A model generated the notes under the pieces. That model made no database searches. It was not told where the DNA came from and saw only the letters and a list, made by a program, of their open reading frames with translations. Positions 410-13,990 of a stretch of 29,427 nt of DNA are shown piece after piece. The position numbers and the translations under genes were made by a program. Source of the DNA: a virus. Each line of letters starts with the position of its first letter. The stretch's first letter is position 1. The stretch lies in IMG/VR virus record IMGVR_UViG_3300023174_000502, positions 1 through 29,427 of that record; one strand, given 5' to 3'.

Positions 410-711
410 AGAAGTGATGGTTGAATATGTACTGCGAAAGTGTGCTTCTGCTGTTTGTTGCCGATGATAGCGAATATGCGCTTGCGGTGTTGTGAGCCTG
501 AATACCCTGGGTGACATACGCAAGCGAAACGGCCGTCATCCCAGATGATGAGGTGGTTCCCGCCTTTGTCCTGGCCGGCCTCGTGACAGGCTGGGCACCG
601 GCCAACAAAGCCACCCGATTGTTTGCGGAGGTTACCGACAAGGTTGAGCTGGAGGCCTGGGATGCCGTGGTCGACCTGTGGGGCGGATGGGGCGGATATT
701 TTGAAACTCAT
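406..711 (-). CDS. Primase-type zinc-ribbon protein
   Basis: 101 aa. The core, residues about 34-84, has the look of the zinc-binding domain of phage/DnaG primases: CPAC (C39, C42), then a glycine- and charge-rich turn with NHLIIWDDGRFACVCHPG, giving C64 and H67 as the other probable ligands. It carries no catalytic primase domain, so it is a stand-alone template-recognition module that may work with the PrimPol-D5 protein encoded just upstream. Only one ATG is possible, because an in-frame stop lies close upstream. No SD is seen; the leader is TCTACAACCACA. Codons 6-12 (ISAPSAPQ) are written over one arm of a 19-bp inverted repeat whose partner lies in the 5' leader, so translation could depend on RNA structure. 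Confidence 0.8.
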   Translation of the reverse strand: MSFKISAPSAPQVDHGIPGLQLNLVGNLRKQSGGFVGRCPACHEAGQDKGGNHLIIWDDGRFACVCHPGYSGSQHRKRIFAIIGNKQQKHTFAVHIQPSLL

Positions 712-851
712 TGTGGTTGTAGATGCAGAATAGTCGATTTTTAGGAGCCATTAAGAGTTGGAAATTGCCGCCCCATCCGCCCCACATTGCATTTTCGTCA
801 ATGCTGGCGGGCCTAAAGTGTGGGGCGGATCTTTTTCGTATCCGCCCCACA
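677..851. promoter_or_regulatory. GGGGCGGAT repeat cluster: candidate origin or RNA switch
   Basis: The stretch between the primase-helicase stop (858) and the first codons of the zinc-ribbon gene holds six copies of GGGGCGGAT or close variants in both orientations (680-688, 689-697, 767-774 variant, 775-783, 822-830, 840-848). Two perfect inverted repeats result: TGTGGGGCGGAT at 819-830 with its complement at 840-851 (12 bp, 9-nt loop), and a 19-bp arm at 677-695 with its complement at 768-786. Arm 819-830 can also pair with 775-786, so the folds exclude each other. The 696-767 interval is AT-rich and contains the start codon at 711. No U-tract follows the short hairpin. Iterons of a replication origin or a leader RNA switch both fit. 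Confidence 0.6.
808..821. repeat. 14-bp repeat shared with the 8.8-kb intergenic region (copy 1)
   Basis: CGGGCCTAAAGTGT occurs here and again at 8820-8833 in the same orientation, both times in non-coding DNA upstream of a leftward gene. Its last bases run into the 819-830 arm of the GGGGCGGAT cluster. It is a possible protein- or RNA-polymerase-binding site. Confidence 0.6.
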
Positions 852-857
852 TTCGGC

Positions 858-2855
858 TCATTCGAGGTCGTTACAGGCTTCATCGAGGCGGTAGAGCATG
901 ACTCGGAGGTAGCCGCGGGTGCCTGAATCGTCACGGTCAGAGCGGTTGAGATGCTTGGTCGGGATGGCCTGGTGGACCTCGAGCATCAGCTCAGCGGCAC
1001 GTCGTTGGAACTTCTTCTCAGGCTCGGAGGCCCACTCCTTGTTGCCGCACATCTGCAGGTAGGCTTGGAACAGTTCCTCGGTGCTGATGCTGTCTGCGGC
1101 CATGCTGGTGGGCTTGATGTGGTTGGTGATGAAGTAGCGGATCGAGTCGCTCTCTGACAGAAGGCTGTCGATGCGTGCCCGCTGTTTGGTGGTCACCGGG
1201 AACGAGCGGCCTTGTTTCAATACACGCTGCAGTGATTCGGCACCGGAAAGGAACCAGTTGAGAATACCGGGCCCCTCTTTATCAATCATCACATCGTGAT
1301 AGTTTGGTATTACAGTTGATGGCTTAGGCTGTGAGAAATCGAGCAGCAGTAGGCGACGAGACCACGCACCGAGATCGCCCTGCACGTTGACTCTGAGTTT
1401 GCTATTTGCTGTGACAATGACATTCCAGTCTCCGATCAGTGTCTTAACACCGTTGCGGTTCTTGAACTCGGCGATGATACGGTCGCCTCCGGTCATGGCC
1501 TTCAGGAACGATGATCCCTCGCACGATAGGAAGTCCGGGGCCACGTCGGCGCCGATCAGGAGTGTCTTGTCATGGAACAGGCCGGCCTCGAAGCGCCCGC
1601 CGAGGTGGTTGGTGCGGAGCTCGGAGCAGTTCTCGTCGCCGACGAGACGCCGGACAACACCTGCCACCGTCGACTTTCCGCCACCGCCGGTGCCGGTCAG
1701 CAGGAGGATGACCTGGGGCTGGTTGCGCTGCAGGAGGGCCAGGCCGCCCCAGTGCTGCAGCATGAGCTGGTCTTCGGCCTCTGGCAGAGCGTGGTCGAGG
1801 AAGGCCTGCCACATCGGGCTGGTGGCGCCTTCGACGTATCGGATGGGCGTCTGGTTCCGGGACATCCACTCCGGCGAGAAGCCATGCATCCCGTAGGGTG
1901 TGACTCGAAGGTCGACCATGACGTTCTCGGTGTGGACTATGGCGTCGGGCCGGTTGAATGGCGCTCGCTCGACCTGGAGCTGGGCGGCCAGGTCGATGAC
2001 GCTGTTTGAGAACTGCGCGGTCAGCTTGGGCAGGAGGCTGCGCAGGTGGGGCGCTGCCTGGTCAGCGGCGTGGTCGAGGATGACCTTGCGGGCCATGGCC
2101 AGCACCCGCTGGCCGACTTCCTCCCGGGTCATGGACTGCCAGATGCCGCGGTCGGCCAGGTAGAAGTAGAAGCAGCCGGTGACGGTATCGAAGAGAATGC
2201 GTTCCTTGGCAGCCAGGTAGGCCGCGAAGAACGGGGCCTGCAGGGTGCCGGTGCCCTGCTTTGAGAACACCCAAGGGTCGCCGTGTTGTTGCAGTAGCTC
2301 GGCGATGGCCTCGTTCTCGCCGGGCACCGGCCAGCCTTCGGGCCAGCGGATCTGGGAAAAGTCGAGTGTGATAGGCGGGTTGTCGACCAACACGGTGTAC
2401 TCACAGCCCGATGGGTGCGTGCCCTTGACGGTCGACAGGTTTCCGGTGCTGCGCCACTCATAGAGGGGACGCCCGAGCTGCCGGCCGTTGACCTCGACCA
2501 TCTCGGTGGTACTACGGGCCGAGGAAGGGCCCGGGTATGGCCCGGAGATGCGCACACCGATCTGGGCGCCGCGGCGGCCTCGCCACCGGGCAGTGGTCTT
2601 CAGCTTCGGGTTGACGGCGAGGAAGGCCTCGAGGCTCTGGTCATCATCGAAGTCGATGGCGCAGAACCCGCCGGAGTGCTCGCCCAGGCGCACGGCGACG
2701 TTCCCGTGCTCCAGTAGGGCCTGATAGGTGGGCGCCGCGGTGCTCTGCAGGGTGTGCTGGGTGTACTTGACGAGCGGCACCTTTGTGCCCGGGCGGCAAG
2801 GCACCAGGAACAGCGGCGTGCCGAGCCATTGCTCGATCTCATGCGTGGACATCAT
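858..2855 (-). CDS. PrimPol / D5-like SF3 helicase
   Basis: 665 aa replication protein. The N-terminal half looks like a bifunctional primase-polymerase (archaeo-eukaryotic primase fold): FCAIDFDDD with D68 and D70 as metal ligands, RRGAQIGVRI about 93-102, and a conserved-looking KGTHPSG at 143-149. The C-terminal half is a superfamily 3 (D5/poxvirus type) helicase: Walker A GTGGGGKST 387-395, Walker B LLIGADV about 431-437, sensor VIVTANSKLR near N483, and arginine finger WSRR about R499-R500. Such fusions prime and unwind at phage and plasmid origins; some also polymerise DNA. No other polymerase is seen in the window. The start is ATGATG (2855 or 2852), nine bases after the upstream stop and without a clear SD. 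The repeat cluster just downstream may be its origin. Confidence 0.9.
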   Translation of the reverse strand: MMSTHEIEQWLGTPLFLVPCRPGTKVPLVKYTQHTLQSTAAPTYQALLEHGNVAVRLGEHSGGFCAIDFDDDQSLEAFLAVNPKLKTTARWRGRRGAQIGVRISGPYPGPSSARSTTEMVEVNGRQLGRPLYEWRSTGNLSTVKGTHPSGCEYTVLVDNPPITLDFSQIRWPEGWPVPGENEAIAELLQQHGDPWVFSKQGTGTLQAPFFAAYLAAKERILFDTVTGCFYFYLADRGIWQSMTREEVGQRVLAMARKVILDHAADQAAPHLRSLLPKLTAQFSNSVIDLAAQLQVERAPFNRPDAIVHTENVMVDLRVTPYGMHGFSPEWMSRNQTPIRYVEGATSPMWQAFLDHALPEAEDQLMLQHWGGLALLQRNQPQVILLLTGTGGGGKSTVAGVVRRLVGDENCSELRTNHLGGRFEAGLFHDKTLLIGADVAPDFLSCEGSSFLKAMTGGDRIIAEFKNRNGVKTLIGDWNVIVTANSKLRVNVQGDLGAWSRRLLLLDFSQPKPSTVIPNYHDVMIDKEGPGILNWFLSGAESLQRVLKQGRSFPVTTKQRARIDSLLSESDSIRYFITNHIKPTSMAADSISTEELFQAYLQMCGNKEWASEPEKKFQRRAAELMLEVHQAIPTKHLNRSDRDDSGTRGYLRVMLYRLDEACNDLE

Positions 2856-13261: not shown

Positions 13262-13618
13262 TTAGATCTCGCAGAACTGCGCGAAGATCTTCACCGGGCT
13301 GTTCGATGCTCTGACGTACATCGTGGCATCGACCCACGGGATCAGGATGAACTGCCCGGCAGGAATCTGGAAGCTGTACGGCGAGGAAGGCCCGATTGAG
13401 ACCGGGTTGACCAGATCGAGGTTGACCACCAGAAGGCGGTACGGTGTACCGAGATCCGCGGTCAGATCGAGGGCCTCGTCGGTGGTTCCGACCACCTGAG
13501 TCTGCTGCCCCATATCGGTGCCGGTCATGTTGGCCACCGCGCTGTAGGACAGTGAATTGATCGTTGCACCGCCTTTCGCAGCATAAAGCCGCGCCGACAT
13601 CTCGACTTCGTTGGCCAT
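13262..13618 (-). CDS. Distal tail protein, tandem paralog B (118 aa)
   Basis: 118 aa, clearly homologous to the upstream neighbour (13631-13990). Shared landmarks are M(A)(N/D)E at the start, ARLYA-K-GA, GTDMG-QTQ, EALD, IPAG---LIP and an identical FCEI end; I estimate somewhat under half the residues identical. Beta-rich, with a hydrophobic strand pattern and no catalytic signature. The two may form a hetero-oligomeric ring or collar at the tail tip. The leader CTACCAACACC has no SD. Confidence 0.75.
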   Translation of the reverse strand: MANEVEMSARLYAAKGGATINSLSYSAVANMTGTDMGQQTQVVGTTDEALDLTADLGTPYRLLVVNLDLVNPVSIGPSSPYSFQIPAGQFILIPWVDATMYVRASNSPVKIFAQFCEI

Positions 13619-13630
13619 GGTGTTGGTAGG

Positions 13631-13990
13631 TTAGATCTCGCAGAAGGTGGCCTGAATGGTCACCGAGGAAGTGTCGGCCTTCAGGTAGAGCGTGGCGCTG
13701 ACATAGGGGATCAGCAGCGTCTCGCCGGCCGGGATGCGCATCGTGTAGGTGCCGGAGACAAACCCGGCCTCGACGAAGTTGGTGCTGTCGAGGTTGCTGA
13801 TCAGCAGCTTGTAGGGGCTGGAGACATCGACCGGCACGTCGAGGGCCTCGACCGTGATGCCGATGAGCTGTGTCTGGCTGCCCATGTCGGTGCCGACCAT
13901 GGTGGCGGTTTTGGTGTAGGTTACCGAGGGCAGATACGCACCGTTTTTTGAAGCGTACAGCCGGGCCGTCATTTGAATCTCGTCTGCCAT
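13631..13990 (-). CDS. Distal tail protein, tandem paralog A (119 aa)
   Basis: 119 aa, the upstream member of a tandem duplicated pair. It carries TARLYASKNGAYLPSVTY, GTDMGSQTQLIG, MRIPAGETLLIPYV and ends QATFCEI, aligned end to end with the neighbour without large gaps. It follows the 275-aa minor tail gene, whose own end lies 25 bases away. The leader CACTCACACCTT is A/C-rich and lacks an SD. A structural role in the tail tip is inferred from position and the beta-rich sequence. Confidence 0.75.
   Translation of the reverse strand: MADEIQMTARLYASKNGAYLPSVTYTKTATMVGTDMGSQTQLIGITVEALDVPVDVSSPYKLLISNLDSTNFVEAGFVSGTYTMRIPAGETLLIPYVSATLYLKADTSSVTIQATFCEI

Follow-up and report, generated by a model that had tools for sequence, protein, structure and literature searches.

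The window, by which we mean the whole stretch of DNA analysed, is a 29,427-base virus record that carries, on its minus strand and close to one end, a PrimPol-D5 primase-helicase gene followed by a small zinc-ribbon gene, with an array of inverted repeats lying between and partly within the two. The best PDB sequence match of the PrimPol protein is the SaPI5 primase-helicase (7OLA, E 6e-11), and its Foldseek matches are AsfvPrimPol and, again, 7OLA; the zinc-ribbon protein matches no Pfam or PHROG family above cut-off. The phage collection contains no close cultured relative, the best tblastn identity being 26%, and a megablast search with the locus L185 gave no match among E. coli or phage records. 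More distant relatives, with PrimPol identities of 36-38%, were found in Verrucomicrobiota assemblies, and their location hints at that phylum as the host. Elsewhere in the window, amid structural genes, positions 13262-13618 and 13631-13990 encode adjacent paralogous small proteins (MANEVEMSARLYAAKGG / MADEIQMTARLYASKNG). The features of the locus are as follows.

858..2855, minus strand: PrimPol-D5 (SF3) primase-helicase, the proposed initiator (Pfam Prim-Pol, D5_N, DUF5906)
861..1220, minus strand: C-terminal winged-helix domain of PrimPol, residues 546-665, the proposed origin-binding domain (AF2 model, pLDDT 82.7)
954..956, minus strand: codon of Lys634 at the start of the wing, the sole PrimPol column tracking iteron base 4
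840..851, minus strand: arm A, one unit (TGTGGGGCGGAT), exact
819..830, plus strand: arm B, one unit, inverted relative to A, exact
768..786, minus strand: arm C, two tandem 9-bp units with a 9-nt lag, the primase-proximal array
696..767, no strand: AT-rich loop between the arrays, a candidate unwinding element, with a TTTCCAACTC box beside array C and the zinc-ribbon start codon
677..695, plus strand: arm D, inverted to C and likewise made of two tandem units, which overlap the first zinc-ribbon codons
406..711, minus strand: zinc-ribbon gene, 101 aa, with a CPAC...C..H primase-type motif found by eye and array D in its N-terminal codons

Inverted repeats behind the PrimPol gene

Six copies of a unit of about 9 bp form head-to-head arrays that flank the AT-rich loop directly 3' of the PrimPol-D5 gene. 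The six iteron-like units named in the preliminary description comprise five exact copies of GGGGCGGAT, at 680, 689, 775, 822 and 840, and a sixth (768-774 plus flank) that reads GGGGCGGCA; beyond 680-848 the window has a single further copy of GGGGCGGAT. The four arms and their pairings are likewise exact as first described, with 19 of 19 pairs for C:D and 12 each for A:B, B:C and A:D, and they lie far beyond chance. Extended, C:D spans 25 nt with 92% pairing; its score of 19 exceeds the best score, 13, obtained by shuffling the 400 nt behind the PrimPol gene 300 times, and the second-best inverted repeat of the whole 29-kb window also scores 13. The folding of the minus transcript from 860 to 670 that had been suggested as a check gave a z of -8.4 as RNA and -8.3 as DNA, with none of 200 shuffles as good.

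The A:B arms form a compact hairpin 6 nt past the PrimPol stop codon, and C:D begins 72 nt after that codon, producing a large stem-loop directly 3' of a PrimPol-SF3 gene. As originally noted, C lies in the leader and D in the first zinc-ribbon codons, with the start codon (709-711) inside the loop, which is 67% AT as compared to 42% for the window (6 of 2,936 windows were as high). Tandem short repeats beside an AT-rich segment, as found in iteron origins of the SaPI/P4 type, are therefore present (9-nt lag, AT 0.67). The idea that the four arms pair in mutually exclusive ways holds in so far as all the alternatives exist, but they exist only because all arms copy one unit, and the relatives L008, L018, L112 and L143 lack the A:B hairpin. 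Relatives also share the TTTCCAACTC box beside the 5' array, along with its mirror, GAGTTGGAAA, which precedes the 3' array; Pan4 and L153 have this pair in part, and many other loops contain ACGCGCG.

Conservation among related loci

Scans of IMG/VR yielded more than 80 related loci, in which the repeat was judged where the gene end was in hand. The preliminary description had made its case depend on conserved arms in related phages with the same genes, and it is the structure, not the sequence, that is conserved: about 80 related loci with PrimPol identities of 61-100% retain an inverted repeat in the interval from the PrimPol stop to the zinc-ribbon start. Throughout, the 3' arm falls in the first zinc-ribbon codons while the arm sequence changes wholesale, from TGTGGGGCGGATGGGGCGG in the window to TGTGGCACACAAGTCACAC in L007 (PrimPol 80% identical), TGTGGTACGGATGTCAC in L018, TGAGACGGATGAGACGG in L112 and TTGGGACGGTTGTGACAC in L143. 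The large L008 clade has an arm of about 50 bp that includes TTTGGGACGGGGGACGG; here (L008:5984-6014 and clade-mates) further units (GTCAAGCGTTGTCAAGCG) outside the GGGACGG core lengthen the arms.

Aligning six representatives revealed the compensatory changes that had been sought, with two or more Watson-Crick types at 14 of the 19 pairs; a phage's own arms pair at 16-19 of 19 positions, as compared to a mean of 11.8 for arms of different phages. Structure is thus kept while sequence changes, which is the pattern of pRN1-type origins. The A:B hairpin is confined to the window and the L007/L054 clades and is absent from most relatives. Two loci, L153 and L155, have the repeat within the zinc-ribbon ORF itself; positions 7200-7480 of L155 (Verrucomicrobia MAG CAINLR010000092.1) contain GGGACGCTTGGGACG-type arrays, two of them forward and three reverse, that translate into GTLGTP and VPSVP peptides, and the loop there has an in-frame start codon. 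The idea that the leader extends the zinc-ribbon ORF at its N-terminus was rejected: the frame is open in L008 and some of its mates, but L036 has it out of frame and the window has a stop.

The same layout in other phages

A pattern scan for GGGACGNNNGGGACG, 60-90 nt and CGTCCCNNNCGTCCC found 44 stretches in about 26 groups, many of them directly 3' of a D5/PrimPol gene, whereas the pattern with its arms swapped found 4; arm direction therefore matters. Annotated phages show the same layout built from other units, namely AmM-1 (GGGAGGCTA), Pan4 (GGGAGGATA), Pthi1 (GGGCCTGAC), RcapNL (GGGACGCAA), phi105 (GTTACTTTT) and GMA4 (GGGTGCCAC). Most phages have a within-arm lag of 9 nt (Sfi21 has 8, and PSA gives no clear value), and all 14 further loops measured are at least slightly more AT-rich than their flanks.

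The repeat is not universal behind D5-type primase genes. No such repeat lies directly downstream of the D5-type primase gene in RR1-A or Vibrio phage 13VV501A, and BPP-1, near-identical to BIP-1, in which a stem-loop is reported (PMC4234260), has a 9-bp repeat only. Among D5_N loci in Verrucomicrobiota genomes the repeat was present in at least 3 of 27, a lower bound given that the crude gene-end finder left some ORFs short or misframed. In L168, L174 and L187 the inverted repeat separates a primase/helicase-like gene from one that looks by eye NusG/RfaH-like (WYVVVTHVNQEK...), possibly a second replication-linked arrangement.

DNA or RNA

The inverted arms were also described as a possible leader switch, in which alternative pairing among A-D in the minus-strand transcript would control translation of the zinc-ribbon gene. 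The very stable RNA fold (z -8.4), the start codon in the loop and the compensatory changes among relatives are all what such a switch would produce. The DNA fold z is, however, equal to that of the RNA, and the mismatches tolerated in the stem do not point to RNA: selected transcript pairing should give more G-U than A-C, but close relatives have 52 G-U and 60 A-C mismatches (counts that are not independent, the sequences being related), and 21 repeats of other phages have 28 and 27. Rfam gave no match at or above the gathering score, only four weak matches far below it that are attributable to chance; the A:B pairing is missing in most relatives, and in L153 and L155 the repeat sits within the zinc-ribbon ORF. 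A switch would also give PrimPol residue 634, described below, no reason to track a base of the repeat. The RNA switch was thus discarded on the mismatch balance, the direction of the arms and the covariation with PrimPol, and we regard it as very improbable.

A hairpin that ends the transcript or stabilizes the mRNA would account for a site directly 3' of a long gene and for the compact A:B pairing 6 nt past the stop codon. Positions 500-1000 nevertheless contain no terminator-like G+C-rich hairpin with a T run, and no sigma-70-like promoter. Such a hairpin needs neither 9-bp tandem units nor a fixed arm direction, and array D overlaps coding sequence; we give this reading almost no weight.

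The C-terminal domain and residue 634

In structural alignments made with VIA-align, the nearest match of the predicted C-terminal domain is the DNA-binding domain of RFX (Z 10.0, rmsd 2.5 over 76 residues), with the C-terminus of AsfvPrimPol (Z 9.4) and the origin-binding domain of phage P4 (1KA8, Z 9.3, rmsd 2.8 over 84 residues) similarly alike. The C-terminal winged helix of SaPI/P4-type initiators thus has a counterpart here as a predicted fold (Z 9.3 to 1KA8). Between the window and L007 the domain is 63% identical and the helicase part 86%, indicating that the domain diverges faster. The AF2 models put residue 634 at the beginning of the wing, just past the strand that comes next after the recognition helix (613-628). 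RFX reads DNA largely by its wing, and a specificity residue in the wing would fit that mode of reading.

Among 484 variable PrimPol columns in 79 relatives, residue 634 is the only one that separates phages with a GGGGCGG unit from the rest. It is Lys in the 9 GGGGCGG phages, Asn in 68 and Glu in the 2 GGCACAC phages; put in terms of the fourth base (G in GGGGCGGAT, A in GGGACGGAT), Lys634 occurs where the unit is GGGGCGG and Asn634 where that base is A. Contacts of Lys with guanine and of Asn with adenine are textbook ones. Two rare phages of the L008 clade, L022 and L030, have GGGGCGG like the window in place of GGGACGG, and residue 634 is the only PrimPol column in which both differ from their 63 clade-mates. 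That residue and base change in step points to PrimPol as a reader of the repeat DNA, as judged from these sequence comparisons.

The Lys state requires three changes on a tree of the gene without its C-terminal domain, changes that are forced by supported branches. The codon is AAA in L022, whose background is 98% identical to Asn types, and AAG in L030 and the window clade, which have other backgrounds (haplotypes). Lys634 arose two or three times, two independent events instead of three being possible because the 5' arm is identical in L022 and L030; their iteron change may in part have been shared through recombination. The only further relative of the GGGGCGG type, L254, ends before its PrimPol gene.

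The preliminary description had also taken the codon-level overlap (ISAPSAPQ) to suggest selection on the DNA or RNA itself, and L022 and L030 bear out that the nucleic acid, not the peptide, is what is selected. Two Val-to-Ala codons, both inside array D, are the only columns of the zinc-ribbon gene that separate the groups: the base change forces Val to Ala, and the protein follows the DNA.

Comparison with known origins

The record of Streptococcus phage Sfi21, a phage on which Foley reportedly worked in 1998, annotates a 302-bp origin 3' of the primase. This origin contains CTTTAGTTACTTAGTTAC, 71 nt and GTAACTAAGTAACTAAAG, that is, 18-bp perfect arms around a 71-nt AT-rich loop. The S. thermophilus element, an origin and phage-inhibitory sequence, resembles the window in being a noncoding element 3' of the primase with two-unit inverted arms and an AT-rich loop, but its unit is about 8 bp and AT-rich (AGTTACTT).

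The crenarchaeal plasmid pRN1 has a stem-loop of about 100 nt 3' of its PrimPol-SF3 gene that is needed in cis and is movable; its sequence is not conserved, restoring the symmetry of the stem rescues a stem mutation, and specific binding of the Rep protein to it was not detected (Berkner 2014, PMC4234260). The same authors proposed a stem-loop origin of this kind for phage BIP-1 (PMC4234260). Shared with the window are a large stem-loop (stem of about 20 bp, loop of about 60 nt) directly 3' of a PrimPol-SF3-winged-helix gene, and a structure that is kept as the sequence diverges; no iteron structure is described for pRN1 (PMC4234260), whereas the arms of the window are tandem 9-bp units that overlap the next gene.

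The Rep helicases of SaPI use a C-terminal domain to read iterons that lie directly downstream of the gene (Ubeda 2007, as cited in PMC7581432), and SCCmec Cch2 binds the direct repeats at that place (PMC7581432). On that account SaPI (SaPI5, 7OLA) resembles the window in its D5/Primase_Cterm helicase, its iterons directly downstream and their reading by a C-terminal domain, the candidate reader in the window; the likeness is one of arrangement, and it differs in that the 3' array of the window extends into the next gene and both arrays belong to one long inverted repeat. The alpha protein of P4 shares with the window PrimPol an SF3 helicase and a C-terminal winged helix of matching predicted fold (1KA8, Z 9.3), which in P4 binds origin repeats, but its primase is of the Toprim type, and the P4 origin is described as iterons and not as one inverted array pair behind the gene.

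A candidate replication origin

To our knowledge, few origins have been mapped for phages with PrimPol-D5 or P4-type primases. The earlier suggestion of an origin with iteron-like units bound by PrimPol-D5 is well supported by the conserved position and structure, the 9-bp units, the AT-rich loop, the P4-type domain and the covariation of residue and base, and it is highly probable that the repeats are the start site for copying the phage DNA. Immediately behind the gene for their own initiator, two head-to-head arrays of iterons of about 9 bp (C and D, with the single inverted pair A/B) would enclose an AT-rich segment. The C-terminal winged helix of PrimPol-D5 would read the iterons, residue 634 at the base of the wing being matched to base 4 (Lys/G, Asn/A), and two hexamers would assemble on the two arrays in opposite orientation. 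The SF3 motor would then open the AT-rich loop, perhaps helped by a cruciform, and the PrimPol domain would prime in the opened loop as the origin fires.

GC skew, another check proposed at the outset, gave a divided answer. Over 3 kb it passes from +0.17..+0.19 before the repeat to -0.09..-0.12 after it in the L022, L049 and L062 records, clade-mates with genes almost all on one strand, and there it supports an origin; the window, L007 and L054 records show no flip at the repeat, the site in the window lying at the record end, where skew is uninformative, and in this clade the skew is silent or mildly contrary. Only one of the two clades shows the flip; the two may differ in how they replicate or in the age of their lineages. 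The lack of a flip in the window's clade counts against an origin, as do the D5-type genes without a repeat and the undetected binding of the pRN1 Rep protein.

The arrays could instead be a DNA operator, bound by the PrimPol C-terminal domain or another protein to control the zinc-ribbon and later genes. The covariation of residue and base speaks to DNA recognition by PrimPol, not to a replication start, and the site does lie between genes. The layout nevertheless equals that of the annotated Sfi21 origin and the pRN1 origin, skew flips at the site in one clade, positions 500-1000 have no sigma-70-like promoter, and origin binding is the main task of initiators; an operator thus appears unlikely.

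The best reading is an origin akin to those of pRN1, SaPI and P4, distinguished by its overlap with coding sequence and by a specificity rule of one residue and one base. A broader picture, which we consider somewhat more probable than not, is that the origins of D5-primase phages diverge fast, their 9-bp iterons and the initiator wing evolving together by a simple code (634 Lys reading G and Asn reading A at base 4), near-identical phages repeatedly splitting into origin-specificity groups and dragging the overlapping zinc-ribbon coding sequence along. The shared layout of inverted arrays of about 9 bp around an AT-rich loop, behind a primase gene, makes candidate origins findable by eye even though their sequences differ. 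What the initiator reads was left unshown by the pRN1 work; here one residue and one base covary in parallel lineages. This pair would permit a test of origin recognition by single substitution, and it suggests how related phages come to differ in origin specificity.
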